Positions 1,251-57,900 of a stretch of 64,000 nt of DNA are shown one piece after another. The notes beneath the pieces are model-generated. The model made no database searches. It saw only the letters and a program-made list of their open reading frames with translations, and had not been told where the DNA came from. Source of the stretch: Lysinibacillus sp. OF-1 (GTDB lineage: Bacteria > Bacillota > Bacilli > Bacillales_A > Planococcaceae); the NCBI RefSeq assembly GCF_028356935.1, contig NZ_CP102798.1, positions 3,162,001-3,226,000 on the forward strand. The letters run 5' to 3'. A program made the translations under genes and the position numbers. How positions within the stretch are numbered: the first letter of the stretch is position 1; each line of letters opens with the position of its first letter.

Positions 1251-1304
1251 TGAATACACATATCAAAAAAGAGCAATAAAAAATCGTTGCATGCGTGTTA
1301 CCTT

Positions 1305-1458
1305 CAAACGTTGAGTTTTAGCACTATGCGGCATAGGAATATGTCCAGCTACGTTAAAAAACACCTTATTTCGATGATTTCTGTTGACCCATTGGCGTCT
1401 CTCGACATTTTTGGGTAGTAGCGTATCTCCAGCATAGGAGCCTCACCTAACGAAGGGA
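1305..1458 (-). promoter_or_regulatory. M-box (ykoK-type) magnesium riboswitch
   Basis: Read on the minus strand, the stretch holds the conserved M-box blocks in order: GTTAGGTGAGGCTCCTAT, GGAGATACGCT, ACTACCC, AATGTCGAGAGACGCCAATGG, GTAGCTGGA, and CCGCATAGTGCTAAAACTCA near the 3' end. This Mg2+-sensing aptamer class controls Mg2+ transporters in Bacillales, and here it leads into a terminator and then corA. The motif match is by eye, but several independent conserved blocks agree. Confidence 0.92.
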
Positions 1459-1517
1459 TGTTATTCTTTTATTCCTATAAATCATAGCGGATTGAATTCA
1501 AACTGTCAAACTGTAAA

Positions 1518-27059: not shown

Positions 27060-27216
27060 ATCCTATGTATAGGACGAATCCCAATTGTGCCGTAATGCCA
27101 AGAAACATTCGTTTTGAACCCGCAATTTGCAGGGGGGTGCCCGCTTTGCAGCTTTAAACGTCCCGCTCCGCTAGGGGCATGTTTGCGACTACAAAATGAA
27201 GGCTCCCGATTCGATA
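27060..27216 (-). ncRNA. ssrS: Probable 6S RNA
   Basis: Non-coding, GC-richer than its surroundings and self-complementary overall. Near the ends CGAATC and GATTCG can close a long stem; inner parts include GGTTCAAAACGAATGTTTC and TTGGCATTACGG, which resemble the 3' half of Gram-positive 6S RNAs. It lies just downstream of aspS on the same strand and ends in a terminator; in B. subtilis the 6S-1 gene (bsrA) occupies the matching place beside aspS. 6S RNA mimics an open promoter and binds RNA polymerase. Exact ends are estimates. Confidence 0.65.
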
Positions 27217-27352
27217 GTGTTCGGTCAAAACTGTGAAGTAGATTTAGCAGTTAGACAAACACATCAGGATTCGTATTACAGTTATCATAACACCACTTTT
27301 CTGATAATTCAAACGATTTTCTCTCATAATCTATATTTTCCTGAAAAAACAC

Positions 27353-30743: not shown

Positions 30744-31005
30744 CAAAAAAGCCCCCGTCACCTTGCCATAGCAAGGGACGAGAGCTGTATAAGCTTCCGC
30801 GGTTCCACCCTAGTTGACACAATTAATTACATGTGTCCTCCTCGTAATCGGATAACGGCCGATTCCGTTTTTTCCTACTAAGCACTGCTTTTCAGAAAAA
30901 AGCCTCTCAAGTGTTATTCGCGTGATACATTTTTGTAGGAAAGATTGCAGCCTAAGTCTTTCCCTCTCTGTTCCAATAGAGGTATACGCTACTTGCTTGG
31001 TCATA
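30744..31005 (-). promoter_or_regulatory. T-box riboswitch of the hisS-aspS operon
   Basis: On the minus strand the T-box core AGGGTGGAACCGCGG lies at 30797-30811, and a terminator with arms AGCTCTCGTC.../...GACGGGGGCT and six T ends at 30744. Stem I holds AAGTAG opposite a specifier loop that reads GAATAACAC (30911-30919). By analogy to the trp leader (GAA-UGG-A) the codon could be AAC (Asn) or the overlapping CAC (His). The leader senses uncharged tRNA and allows read-through into hisS. About 230 bases separate its terminator from hisS. Confidence 0.93.
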
Positions 31006-31177
31006 AGCGATTAATCATTTTTCGATTACCCTTTATGTTAGTCACTAGCCATGCCAATGTCAACTGTTTTTGTATTTTTCATAGGGCTATAATGAAAATA
31101 ACAAATTCCGTTACCATTTTACCACGAATTTTATGACAAAAGCATGGTAAAATAGCACAAGGAATAGGAGGAATCTG

Positions 31178-46480: not shown

Positions 46481-48525
46481 TTATGTTAATCGTTCATCAA
46501 ACCATTGTTTTAATTCTATATAAGGAGCATAGACAAGCTTTTGCTCCATTTCAATCTGTTCTGAACGTTGTTTGTAAGACGGTGCCTCTGTTAGTGCTTG
46601 TTTTGGGGCATTCACGTTGACAGTCGTCAGTCCACTCTCCATTTTAACAAAACCAAGCTCAAAAAACACCTGTGTCATAAATTTTAATACATCCAATGGC
46701 CAACCTGTATGCTTTGCTAAATCTGCTATATGCATATCAAGCGGAAAGGCTGGTCGATTTTTCAAAAATTTATAATACCAAGAAAATTGCTCACGAGTAG
46801 GTAAACCACTAAAGTATTGCGAATCAGGCATATAAAAATGCGCATAAATACGTGAAGGTGTCGTCTTCTGTAACACCTCTTCTAGTCTTTGAACTTGTTG
46901 TGGCAAATCTAAGAGCACAATATAATCACTTTGTTCCACATTGGATAGTGCTGGGTCAACTACTGTAATAGGAGCACCAATCAATGATTGATAATACGCC
47001 ATCGTTGCTGGATGAAAGGCAATAAACTGTGCCTCATCCTTCGGTACCGTATTAAGCCAACGCGCAGTTTGACGGATACCACGAATATCAAATAGCTGCC
47101 ATTCCGTTGTTTGGACATCCTCGATCATAAATTGGGCTTTTTTACGTCCCTGCCATTCATTAATTTGTAAATCGCCTATAAAGGATACTTTAATGCCATA
47201 CGTTAATTCATCATGTAAATGCCCTTTATTAAAGCCGACACTATCTAATTTATCATAGCCATTTGTTAATTCCATTTTAATATGATTCTCAGCTGCTCCA
47301 ATTTTACGCATAGATGAGATTTCAACATCCTCAAGTACGTAAACAGGCTTTGGAAAATCTGTTCCAAATGGTCCTAGTGCTGAAATTTCTTCAATAGCAT
47401 CTGCTGAAATTTCATCGATACTTAACGGAATATCAATATGGACGATCGGTGTTAATTGCTCCTCTGTTAAACATTCTCTTGCCTGTGCATCCAAGCGTGT
47501 ACGTAGTTCATCCACATGCTCTAACGATAAGGTCATGCCTGCGGCCATAGGATGTCCACCAAAATGCGGTAAAATATCTCGGTTTTTAGCTAGTTCATTA
47601 TATAGATGGAAGCCTTCAATGCTTCGAGCGGAACCCTTTGCTGTGCCCTTTTCAGGATCAAGTGAAAGGACAATGGTTGGACGATAGTACTGCTCAACAA
47701 GTCGTGAGGCAACTATTCCAACAACGCCTGCATTCCAGCCTTCCCCCGCCACAACAAGAACTAAGGAATTGCCGATTTTTTCATCCGATTCAATAAGTGC
47801 AATGGCCTCATCTGTAATGCTTTTCACAATATCTTTGCGCTCTGTATTGCAGGCATTAAGCTGCTTTGCCAATGCGCTTGCTTTAGCACTATCATCTGCC
47901 ATTAATAACTCGACTCCTGGAGCTGCTTCTCCGAGTCGACCAACAGCATTTAATCGAGGACCAAAATAAAAGCCAATTGTCTCTTCCGTAATTTTTGCCT
48001 GCTCTGTACTGGCTATATCACACATTGCTTGTACCCATGGACTAAGGGAACGACGCATTTCCTGTATACCTCGCTTCACGAGATAGCGATTTTCATCCAC
48101 TAAAGGAACTAAATCAGCTACAGTTCCAATCGCCACCAATTCCATTAAATGAATTGGTAGTTCACCATATAAAGCATGTGCTAACTTAAAGGCTACACCT
48201 ACTCCAGCTAGCTCTCCAAACGGATAATGACCTTCTGGTAATCGAGGATGAAGAATAATATCTGCTGGCGGTAGTTCCTCACCTGGCTCATGGTGATCTG
48301 TCACAATGACATCCATGCCAAGCTCTTTAGCCACTCGAACAGGTTCGATACCAGATATCCCGTTATCTACTGTTATGATTAACTGTACACCCTCTTCATA
48401 TGCTTCACGAAATAATGCCTCATGTGGACCATAACCATGGATAAAACGATTGGGGATTTTAAAGGATACATCCGCTCCAAGATCTAGTAAAACATTTAGC
48501 ATAACAGTCGTGCTTGTGACACCAT
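46481..48525 (-). CDS. recJ: RecJ single-strand exonuclease, 3' exon
   Basis: Main part of RecJ, the 5'-3' single-strand DNA exonuclease for repair. It begins within the DHH motif I: the exon boundary supplies ATGGTGTCAC, i.e. the end of DYDA|DGVTST. Then follow DHH-family motifs [35 protein letters not shown], the DHHA1 part [27 protein letters not shown], and the OB and C-terminal domains. An open frame starts 46 bases earlier inside the intron, but those residues are intron sequence. Together with the 5' exon it makes a 772-aa protein, near the usual length. Confidence 0.93.
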
Positions 48526-51313
48526 ATAGTGATAGGTAAGCCTTTGAGGTTATCTCTAGCTTTTCCCCCACTTCACACCGTGCGTGAGACTTTCACCTCA
48601 CACGGCGTTCCATCGAATAATTTCAAAACTTTGTTAATCTACATAACTTAACAGTATTCACTAAGCGTATGTTTATTTGTCCAATTAAATTGCTAGTTCT
48701 TCTAAATTTAGTATTTTGCGTAACGTATTAAGTTTGTTGAGGCTTCCAACATTCGTTATAAGATATTTATATTTCGAGATAATTTCTTCATCTTTCGCAT
48801 GAATTAAAATATGAATGTCTTTATCAACGAGACAGAGGTTTTTGTATTCGTCAGTACCACCTTGCAATCGTGGTACTTTGTGATGACAGTGAATCGTCAT
48901 TGGGTTTAGTCCTTGCCCTGTTACATGGCATATACCTCTTTGTGCACAGTATAATGCAATTCGATTGTCGTTATATTCGACACTTCGTTGTGAAATTGGA
49001 TGTTCCATTAAGAAACGAAGTACGCCAACATCAATAGTAGAGAGGTTTTTATGAATTTCTTCTCTACCTTCTTTTGTATATGCATTTACTACATTTCGTT
49101 TCATCATTGGACTTTTGTGTTTAATGTAACCAATAGGTAGAAACGGTTCTCGTGATATAAATCTAAGTTGCTTGCTTTTTCCGTATTCTTTCTTGATGAA
49201 ATCAGAAGTGATAACACCCGTTTTCTTGATTCGCCGTTTCATTCGATGGTCCTTCAAACATACGTTTATTTCATATGCGATGTTTCCCATATCTTCGGCT
49301 ATCATAGTTGCTATGCGAAAATACTGATGAAGTCCTATTACAGTTGAGTTATATAATGCTATTTTTCTTGCTTGGTCATTTGAGCCACTATCATATCGAA
49401 TACCATTAATAATTTCTTTAAGGTTATTCTTCGTACGCTGTACTGCTTTATCACACATATGACTTTTAACTACCCATTTCTGACCTTTTGGAATTAACTT
49501 CATTTTGATTCCTAGAAATTCAGAATAGTCCTTTTTAAGATTCACGATTTTTGATTTGTCTTCACTAATTGCTAGACCTAGTCTATCTTTAAGCCATTTT
49601 TGAACCGCAATAAATAACTTTTTGGTATGGTTAGGATTACTACAAAAGATTTTGAAGTCATCTGCATAGCGAACAATGTAACATTCTTTCAGTTTAGATG
49701 ATTTCTTTAACATCCTATATTTATAACTATTGTGAGGATGTCTATTTTCTCCCTTACCACCATATTGCGTATAGTCTTTTAAAGTGGGGAATGTTTCCCA
49801 TTGGCTTTCAATCCATCGGTCAAGTTCATTAAGCACAATATTAGACAACAATGGAGATAAAATACCTCCTTGTGGTGTACCTTTTTTATTCTCAATAATT
49901 TGACCATCTGGCATTTTGACTTTGGCTTTTAGCATTTTTGAAATAATCGTGAGTAAATTTTTGTCTTGTATACCTAGTGTCCACATTTGTTTTAACAACT
50001 TTGCATGTGAAACATTATCGAAAAATCCCTTTATATCTATATCAATTACATAAGACATTTTGGAATGTTGCATTAACCGATAACTTTGAGCAATCGCATT
50101 TTCTACTGAACGGTTTGGTCTAAATCCGTGACTTCTACCAGAAAATTTTGCTTCTGCTATAGGCTCAAGAACTTGGAAAATACATTGTTGGACTATTCTA
50201 TCCCAAATTGCAGGAATTCCTAAAGGTCTTACTTTACCATTAGGTTTTGGTATTTCAACTCGTCTAACTGCTTTCGGTTTGTAATCTCTTAATTTATTTC
50301 TAACATAACAAACGAATTGTTCTTCGGCTAGCTTCGAAACATGTTCGATTGTCCGACCATCTACGCCAGCCGTTTTACTACCCGTATTTTTCTTAATATT
50401 ACGATACGCTAACTTAATGTTTTCAGACGAACTGATAATTCTCATTAAGTTTTTAAAATTACTACCGTTTTTACTTTGGTCATATAGCATGTCAAAAGTT
50501 GACTGCATACTATAATATTCAGCATTTCTTAACTTGGACTTTTTAACATGTTGTACGATTCGTGAATTTGCCACAGACATCAACCCCTCTCTCAAGTGGT
50601 GATTCTATTAGTCATACTCGAATCTGTGATTTGTTATGCATTTATAAGTCTTTGAAATTTCCGACTAGAGCCTATCCCTCCACCGCTTATTATCACGATT
50701 TCAAAGGTACTGTGGCTCCACTCTCACGAAAGGTTAATCAGTTTTAATAGGTTGCCCCTTTATATACTGAACTGCTTCATAGGCAGGTTAATACCTCCAC
50801 ATCCTTCGCTTTCCACGTTCCGACTTCTCTATCCATCCATATATCCTTAGGTTTCTCCTATAGTCCTGTATGCTTGAACTTGCCTGTAACAAGCTATGGA
50901 TTTTCATAACGCACGATTTTTACTCATCCACACATACGATGGCACTGCCACCCATTGCATTTCTACAACATCTACGTCTAGACCTGTACATTCAGAGATT
51001 CGTCAGTGCTTGTGCAGCACATTCTAACCATAGATACTTTATGGACTCCCGGCATATAGGATACACCATCTACCTCTAGACAGCTTTCGTGACTTACTGT
51101 GAACATTTTTACATTTGTAAGCTGACGGTATCTCTCTGCCGACTTTACCGAGCTTCATACTTCACTAGTTAACCTTAGCTAAAGCATGTCGGAGTATCAG
51201 AGTAGGCGTTTCAAGGCGTTACCCTCTCATTCCACCTATCAAGAAATCAGTTCTCCTAGGGAAATTAAGCGACTCCCTAGTGTCTAAGCTTTTCACTTAG
51301 AAACGTGTCGCAC
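48526..51313 (-). mobile_element. Group II intron inserted in recJ
   Basis: The 2788-base insert begins GTGCGAC (group II 5' consensus GUGYG) and ends ...CACTAT. Near the 3' end is a domain V candidate (about 48573-48611) with GCCGTG / CACGGT stem, loop GTGAAAG and CGC triad, then a domain VI-like hairpin. A maturase ORF lies in domain IV; about 730 bases upstream of it show no gene and should form domains I-III. Removal of exactly this segment joins GATGCCG to ATGGTG and restores YDADGVTST of RecJ. Ends are inferred from the frame and consensus. Confidence 0.94.
48685..50580 (-). CDS. ltrA: Group II intron reverse transcriptase/maturase with HNH endonuclease
   Basis: Multifunctional intron protein of about 631 aa. 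Reverse transcriptase motifs: RPLGIPAIWDRIVQQCI, SHGFRPNRSVENAI, DIDIKGFFDNV, GTPQGGILSPLLSNIVLNELD, and the active site YADD (RYADDFKIFC). Then the maturase X domain, and a C-terminal HNH endonuclease with two CxxxxG-type knuckles (CAQRGICHVTGQ) and HCHHKVPRLQGGTDEYKNL...HILIH. All motifs look intact, so splicing and mobility are possible. Start ATG 50580 behind GAGGGG; a TTG at 50595 would add five residues. Confidence 0.95.
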   Translation of the reverse strand: MSVANSRIVQHVKKSKLRNAEYYSMQSTFDMLYDQSKNGSNFKNLMRIISSSENIKLAYRNIKKNTGSKTAGVDGRTIEHVSKLAEEQFVCYVRNKLRDYKPKAVRRVEIPKPNGKVRPLGIPAIWDRIVQQCIFQVLEPIAEAKFSGRSHGFRPNRSVENAIAQSYRLMQHSKMSYVIDIDIKGFFDNVSHAKLLKQMWTLGIQDKNLLTIISKMLKAKVKMPDGQIIENKKGTPQGGILSPLLSNIVLNELDRWIESQWETFPTLKDYTQYGGKGENRHPHNSYKYRMLKKSSKLKECYIVRYADDFKIFCSNPNHTKKLFIAVQKWLKDRLGLAISEDKSKIVNLKKDYSEFLGIKMKLIPKGQKWVVKSHMCDKAVQRTKNNLKEIINGIRYDSGSNDQARKIALYNSTVIGLHQYFRIATMIAEDMGNIAYEINVCLKDHRMKRRIKKTGVITSDFIKKEYGKSKQLRFISREPFLPIGYIKHKSPMMKRNVVNAYTKEGREEIHKNLSTIDVGVLRFLMEHPISQRSVEYNDNRIALYCAQRGICHVTGQGLNPMTIHCHHKVPRLQGGTDEYKNLCLVDKDIHILIHAKDEEIISKYKYLITNVGSLNKLNTLRKILNLEELAI

Positions 51314-51587
51314 CGGCATCATAATCGCCATAGACTAAAATCTTCTGCCCATTTTCTAATGCTTGCTCAATTCGTGCTACTGCTTCAGCCATACCGTACA
51401 TAAGAAATGGGTCATGGACATTTGCTTCAGTCATATTTAATAAGCTTTCTGCTTCAGCCGTAGTTTCACAGCCTCGTGCTGCTAAAATTTTTGCAGCAAT
51501 CGCGGAAAGTTGTAAGTCATTTTGTAATGCTTGTACAAGTGTGGCATCTGGACGCTCCACCTGCCATCTTTTTTTCGATAGAATCAT
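51314..51587 (-). CDS. recJ: RecJ single-strand exonuclease, 5' exon
   Basis: The first 91 codons of RecJ: MILSKKRWQVERP, LQLSAIAAKILAARG, and QKILVYGDYDA, the start of catalytic motif I. Unspliced, translation would run five codons into the intron and stop at 51297. GAAG and GTGAG upstream provide a ribosome site. Exon joining is needed for an active enzyme because the metal-binding Asp and the following residues are split by the intron. Confidence 0.93.
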
Positions 51588-57611: not shown

Positions 57612-57900
57612 TAAAAAAAGCCCTCTGCAAAAAGGATTATTCCTAATTGCAGAGGACGATCATGACCGCGTTGCCACCTCATATTAGAGCATATGCTCTC
57701 ACTTTTGTGCTTTCTATGATGACCAGCTTCATTTTAGCCATACATTCAAAGCACCCCTATAACGTGGGGAATCACGTTCGCTTTTAAAAGCGACTCTCAT
57801 AAGTCCATTCACATAAGCTGTAAATCAGTTCACACCACCCACTGACTCTCTAAATTACATACCTATGCTACTACTCTTATTCAACAATTTCTCAGCTATT
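57612..57900 (-). promoter_or_regulatory. T-box riboswitch of the trp operon (Trp specifier)
   Basis: Minus strand: Stem I with AGTAGTAG opposite a specifier loop reading GAA-TGG-A (UGG at 57805-57807), T-box core AGGTGGCAACGCGG at 57666-57679, and a terminator (TCCTCTGCAA ... TTGCAGAGGG, then TTTTTTT) at 57612-57658. Uncharged tRNA-Trp should release read-through into trpE. The upstream 58 bases contain a further inverted pair AAGGTAGAAGGCTTCGGGAG / region and the promoter. Confidence 0.94.

Follow-up and report, generated by a model that had tools for sequence, protein, structure and literature searches.

Group II introns are believed to be ancestral to nuclear introns, and those of bacteria are believed to need a maturase in the cell. 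Group I introns and inteins occupy active-site motifs of conserved genes. For bacterial group II introns, the accessible text of three papers describes housekeeping genes as seldom or virtually never occupied (PMC6003770, PMC4424553, PMC3522654), and the rarity asserted in the original prediction for the DNA described here matches these sources, the last of which also records an exception, the recA intron of Geobacillus kaustophilus (Chee and Takami 2005, as cited in PMC3522654). Protein-less group II introns are portrayed in the available portion of PMC4424553 as rare and nearly always accompanied by a related intron in the genome, with C.te.I1 the sole independent protein-less case known in 2015; the same portion states that class B intron proteins are confined to Firmicutes. 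The accessible part of a 2022 survey that covers ORF-less introns (PMC8919778) makes no mention of recJ, and the open-licence literature searched, mainly titles and the openings of abstracts, held no report of an intron inserted in recJ. RecJ itself has been proposed as a host factor in the retrohoming of Ll.LtrB: extracts of a recJ deletion gave 37% of full-length bottom strand, and a qPCR assay recorded no drop (PMC3636086, available text). Some feedback between RecJ and intron mobility is conceivable.

We analysed a window of 64,000 nucleotides from the genome of Lysinibacillus sp. OF-1, in which recJ is interrupted by a group II intron placed after the first base of the third Asp codon of DYDADG (Table 1). 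Like the recA intron of G. kaustophilus, which is active, this intron lies in a recombination gene on the chromosome of a relative of Bacillus; unlike the recA intron, which the accessible part of PMC3522654 cites as a single case, the recJ site is occupied in at least eight genera and includes protein-less forms. Ll.LtrB, in the relaxase gene of Lactococcus, is also a mobile group II intron within a protein gene, but its host gene is carried by a conjugative plasmid, according to the portion of PMC6003770 available, whereas recJ is a repair gene on the chromosome. In Clostridium tetani, C.te.I1 is likewise described as protein-less in a genome without a related intron (PMC3919590, PMC4424553, both in part); however, it occupies a surface-layer gene and has a shifted 5′ splice site, whereas the comparable recJ introns are found in five genomes, at one canonical site and in a repair gene. 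Our best reading is that the novelty relative to known group II introns lies in a lineage that has specialised in motif I of recJ and has lost its protein repeatedly. In having a conserved catalytic motif as its target, many hosts and a penalty on imprecise loss, the recJ element resembles group I introns and inteins, but it is a group II retroelement. Since it codes for the active site, the target occurs in almost all hosts, and an intron that was lost imprecisely would leave the gene destroyed. A retroelement can in this way live on a conserved protein motif rather than on other mobile elements.

Table 1. Positions, within the window, of recJ, the intron parts and structured RNAs
Feature	Position	Strand	Description
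recJ, interrupted	46481..51587	-	reads from 51587 to 46481
recJ 5′ exon	51314..51587	-	codons 1-91 and first base of codon 92 (Asp)
recJ 3′ exon	46481..48525	-	rest of Asp codon, GVTST..., DHH, DHHA1, OB and C-terminal domains
Group II intron	48526..51313	-	2788 nt, GTGCGAC...CTAT; empty site in G085
Intron domain 1 core	51038..51255	-	Rfam group-II-D1D4-5
Intron domains 5 and 6	48526..48610	-	Rfam Intron_gpII
Predicted branch-point A	48533..48533	-	bulged in domain 6, eighth base from 3′ end
Intron-encoded protein	48685..50595	-	636 aa: reverse transcriptase, maturase, HNH-like C-terminus
Putative EBS2	50994..51000	-	intron nt 314-320, pairs with IBS2
Putative EBS1	50934..50939	-	intron nt 375-380, pairs with IBS1
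Putative IBS2	51323..51329	-	5′ exon -16 to -10; Gly-Asp-Tyr codons
Putative IBS1	51314..51319	-	5′ exon -6 to -1; Asp-Ala-Asp codons
M-box riboswitch	1296..1461	-	above Rfam gathering score
6S RNA	27074..27273	-	above Rfam gathering score
T-box leader	30771..31013	-	above Rfam gathering score
T-box leader	57649..57893	-	above Rfam gathering score

The interrupted recJ gene and its intron

The 5′ exon ends in GATTATGATGCCG, immediately before the intron start GTGCGAC; the intron ends in CCTATCACTAT and the 3′ exon begins with ATGGTGTCACAAG. Joining the exons (GAT TAT GAT GCC G with AT GGT) gives GDYDA-D-GVTST in a single open frame of 776 codons from stop to stop, within which RecJ takes up 772 codons from its ATG. 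The 3′ exon matches the RecJ model TIGR00644 at 510 bits (cut-off 396.9) and the 5′ exon supplies the missing N-terminal part (53.6 bits), so that the host gene has both a TIGR00644 match above cut-off and the DYDADG motif I by which RecJ is recognised. RecJ of the empty-site relative G085 aligned with the solved RecJ structures 8y30 and 5f54 through GDYDADGV. The original prediction had placed a group II intron within DYDADG, with exons joining in exact frame; the Rfam domains, the TIGR00644 exon matches and the open joined frame bear this out, and its junction, 48525/51314, is exact. It had also named a second intact recJ elsewhere as an observation that would speak against it. The whole single-contig genome (4,710,095 bases) contains only two pieces that match TIGR00644, the two exons, and therefore no second recJ was found with this model.

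The empty-site comparison that had been proposed could be made within the species. In G085, labelled as the same species, recJ is uninterrupted and 99.8% identical, with 5 differences in 2,316 bases, none of them less than 400 bases from the junction, and the flanks align on either side of the insertion over 2,912 bases at 99.5% and 1,696 bases at 99.7% (4.6 kb). On this evidence the insertion in the window strain appears to be clean and recent.

Within the intron, the Rfam model group-II-D1D4-5 (RF02004) is matched at 177.6 bits (gathering 34.5) and Intron_gpII, which covers domains 5-6, at 58.6 bits (gathering 40), the latter match ending exactly at 48526; the intact ends and domain V claimed beforehand are thus present. 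The intron protein passes the group II reverse transcriptase/maturase model TIGR04416 (343.9 bits, cut-off 300), contains the PF00078 domain with its YADD motif, and has group II intron proteins as its best matches among solved structures. An apparently intact RT-HNH protein had been predicted, and the open reverse transcriptase frame agrees with this; the HNH-like end gives a weak match of 18.0 bits, below the Pfam cut-off of 21.4. Only one copy of the intron DNA is present in the window genome. Across the related loci described below, GTGCG...AT ends were found in all 22 introns with both ends and also in G483 (taking 5′ GUGYG and 3′ AY as the criterion), and the bulged A and domain 6 are present in 22 of 22 introns aligned. 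A few compensatory pairs occur in domain 5.

EBS1 and EBS2 of the intron likely pair with the recJ codons for G-D-Y-D-A-D. We word this assignment no more strongly because the places were found by search and the runners-up are close: those chosen came out on top among about 680 offsets along domain 1 in that very search, with 0.877 of cells paired vs 0.859 for the runner-up in one case and 0.907 vs 0.901 in the other. Over the 23 loci then known, G483 being left out, the putative pairings contain 32 mismatches, 31 of which fall at third codon positions, and compensatory changes are few; the counts do not draw on alignment A1, which omitted G182 on account of an insertion. Any conserved protein motif would be expected to show mismatches at third positions. 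G483 has a near-identical EBS2 stretch and different EBS1 letters. We also considered a variable loop near intron nt 400 as EBS1 and rejected it, because it fits the exons inconsistently. Wobble bases at 23 occupied and 47 empty recJ sites did not differ (Fisher p 0.13 to 1.0), and host codon preference at the wobble positions was rejected as a determinant on these grounds. Since the wobble bases of empty sites fit equally well, most recJ genes look like potential targets, and we infer that exposure, not sequence, limits the spread of the intron.

Occupancy of the recJ site and loss of the intron protein

When 84,980 genomes were searched with the intron protein alone, a search that reaches close relatives only, 11 loci were confirmed, and in all 11 the intron lies at the recJ codon, after GAYTAYGAY(G/A)CNG; kin of about 50% identity occupy other genes. 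In Lysinibacillus alkalisoli (L041) motif I of RecJ at the intron site reads DYDTDG instead of DYDADG. The combined pattern of exon and intron start is carried by 21 of the 261 genomes of the family, in 7 of its 19 genus codes, and an order-level search covered the same 261 genomes. Beyond these, two loci belong to organisms named Bacillus (Bacillus sp. FJAT-42315 and B. massiliglaciei), and of the five matches in a class-wide sample of 398 genomes, four were known before and the fifth, G483, is in another family. The total therefore stands at 24 known loci in at least eight genera. Of the first 23 loci, 22 have both boundaries on the contig, and every one of these has an open frame across the joined exons, in G069 only as far as the contig end; in G090 the 3′ end was not found; in G483 the joined exons are open over 817 codons. 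Read without splicing, the frame ends in DAGATRF (DTGATRF in one) in 23 of 23 loci. It is very probable, to judge from these sequences, that the intron belongs to a group II lineage specialised for a single chromosomal target, the catalytic motif I of recJ (YGDYDADG).

Several other candidates were rejected. The two-piece recJ of G222 was considered as a carrier, but its pieces overlap (model 2-110 and 101-545), the pattern is absent, and the genome is also missing from the list of those with intron DNA; the two overlapping frame pieces (L084/L093) perhaps reflect a frameshift or a sequencing error. Plasmid and phage vectors were rejected as well: intron DNA was matched by 374 of 72,556 plasmid records and by 13 of 50,697 phages, in neither set over >80% of the query, and these matches are partial or distant kin only. 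Among viral contigs one stretch matched the peptide pattern and none was confirmed.

The protein has been lost repeatedly. An open frame of 637 aa or more is kept by 13 of the 24 introns, and Kurthia massiliensis and Sporosarcina ureae are examples of relatives in which the intron protein is intact; the intron of G005 is of full length with a broken frame, and 10 have lost most or all of the protein, so that it is broken, largely deleted or absent in 11 overall. The 10 shortened introns measure 1741 nt (G008), 1657 (G079), 1223 (G115), 1034 (G106), 1033 including an insertion (G182), 993 (G254), 801 (G030), 778 (G483), 771 (G069) and 664 (G082). Domain 1 and domains 5-6 score above the gathering threshold in every one of them, the lowest domain 1 score being 115.7 bits in G082. 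The insertion in G182 (L103), of about 270 nt, lies in the first stem-loop of domain 1 and has inverted ends, resembling a small transposable element.

Whole-genome searches with the group II maturase model at E 0.001, which detected the intact-protein carriers G000, G218 and G253, gave no match in G069 (90% complete), G082, G106, G254 and G483. Four genus codes of the family are represented among these five introns without a visible maturase, and one of the introns comes from outside the family. G115 and G182 gave only reverse transcriptase-like matches far below cut-off, and relatives scoring above cut-off are present in G008, G030 and G079. With the intron protein as query, G106 and G254 contain remnants only, inside the recJ intron, and no match was found in G069, G082 and G182 (G483 was not in this search). 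G254 has an additional domain-5-like DNA match elsewhere in its genome, so other intron pieces may exist there.

Spread of the intron and probable dependence of RecJ on splicing

The introns of the window and of FJAT-42315 are 90.2% identical whereas their recJ genes are 56.7% identical. The longer intron tree (16 introns) places these two introns as sisters at 100/100 support, while the RecJ tree instead pairs FJAT-42315 with B. massiliglaciei, both on long branches. AU tests, for which groups were named after the intron tree had been inspected and from which Kur_G082 was left out on the ribozyme alignment, reject the vertical grouping of two sister g39 species (p=0.0005), four Sporosarcina (p=0.001) and five Lysinibacillus (p=0.0035). 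The vertical grouping of the two Bacillus is rejected on the longer alignment (p=0.005), whereas the ribozyme alignment fails to separate them (p=0.156), and the two Kurthia introns are ambiguous (p=0.035 on one alignment, 0.105 on the other). The intron trees contain many weak forks, and for the ribozyme tree the bootstrap had yet to converge. To account for presence and absence, a RecJ tree of 68 genes, 21 of them from carriers, requires a minimum of 14 gains or losses. This tree omits G069, in which only half the gene is present, and G090, which is without a 3′ exon, and its 47 intron-free genes were sampled: 43 come from the 240 family genomes that lack the pattern and the other four from outside the family; the recJ of G207 was dropped, having been missed by the motif filter, and G483, found late, is absent from the trees and from the dN/dS comparisons. 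The conflict between the intron tree and the RecJ tree argues that the intron spreads horizontally, and suggests that it homes repeatedly to one site. An old vertical inheritance within the family, with many losses and no repeated homing, would account for the pair G008/G030, whose grouping was not rejected (p=0.41) and is compatible with shared descent, the two introns being 96.1% identical and sharing a gap in the first stem-loop. Such a history is nevertheless very unlikely for the intron as a whole, being at odds with the tree conflicts, with the disparity in identity between the window and FJAT-42315, and with the empty site in the same species.

Two further explanations would involve little or no splicing. 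Among pairs with dS 0.1-1, median dN/dS is 0.044 for intron-free recJ (40 pairs), 0.050 between carriers and intron-free genes (35 pairs), 0.045 among intron-bearing genes (9 pairs) and 0.056 where one of nine protein-loss carriers belongs to the pair (21 pairs). The clearest pair is G008/G030, both without intact protein, at dS 0.58 and dN/dS 0.07. These values are supportive, not conclusive, of purifying selection on recJ in the nine protein-loss carriers examined, because pairwise values include the time before insertion. Were recJ simply broken by the intron, through poor or no splicing that the host tolerates, the window strain itself would offer no objection, its insertion being so recent (five differences from G085) that selection says nothing there. 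We consider this unlikely, since the joined frames are open in the 22 loci with both boundaries and in G483, intron-bearing and intron-free recJ have similar dN/dS, and the ribozyme core is retained after loss of the protein. RecJ could alternatively be made without splicing as two polypeptides that assemble, as the 3′ frame extends without a stop backwards into the last part of the intron and has GTG as a possible start. The N-terminal piece would then end in DAGATRF, however, the C-terminal piece would lack the Asp formed across the junction, and two polypeptides would give no reason for the conserved splice sites, for domain 6 or for its bulged A; we give this explanation almost no weight. 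Because the unspliced reading meets a stop in 23 of 23 loci and dN/dS is as low as in intron-free genes, we infer strongly that RecJ depends on splicing.

Horizontal movement followed by splicing could proceed by a mechanism modelled on known group II introns that have an endonuclease domain. Together, the intron RNA and its RT/HNH protein would recognise the conserved recJ codons by EBS1/EBS2 pairing, and the intron would reverse-splice into the top strand of the target. The HNH domain would nick the bottom strand, after which the protein would copy the intron into DNA. Once the gene is transcribed, the ribozyme would splice out and restore the recJ frame, with help from the protein for as long as it is present. 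The proposed stages of the lineage are gain, protein loss and a splicing-only state. On balance we think it probable that these bacterial group II introns resemble those of organelles, having homed several times to an active-site codon of a repair gene and then lost their protein to become splicing-only elements in genomes without a group II maturase, where they would hence splice unaided or with unknown host factors, and that distant kin use the same tactic at motifs of addA and topB. Related bacteria thereby offer a natural series at one site, in empty, full-protein, broken-protein and protein-free states, and the step from a mobile retroelement to a host-dependent or autonomous intron becomes testable in free-living bacteria.

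Related introns in other genes

In G001 (L189, C1:864000-870500) and G005 (L141) a related intron comes after KEVLVDEYQD; the protein of the G005 intron is 49% identical to the recJ intron protein. NCBIfam names the 5′ exon in G001 AddA (107.5 bits, a fragment below cut-off), and DEYQD in addA is what we take to be the Walker B motif. In G008 (L190, C1:482500-488500) a related intron, with a protein 50% identical, comes after SDHHA in topoisomerase III (topB; 354.5 bits, a fragment below cut-off). Rfam confirms both the addA and the topB introns. The downstream sequence, read by eye, continues these motifs as DEYQD-TN and DHHA-IIPTEG, and in-frame splicing is possible for DEYQDTN. With these three cases, the wider group may habitually target conserved motifs of DNA-repair genes.

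The genome that holds the window encodes a second, unlike group II reverse transcriptase, which lies outside the window at G000:C1:3247515-3248837 and has a match of nearly equal score in G085. On Enterococcus plasmids (H8-H10) distant kin of the intron overlap annotations of Y-family DNA polymerase, and in Bacillus phage AR9 a match to the 3′ end of the intron overlaps an RNA polymerase subunit annotation (phage matches H25 and H28).
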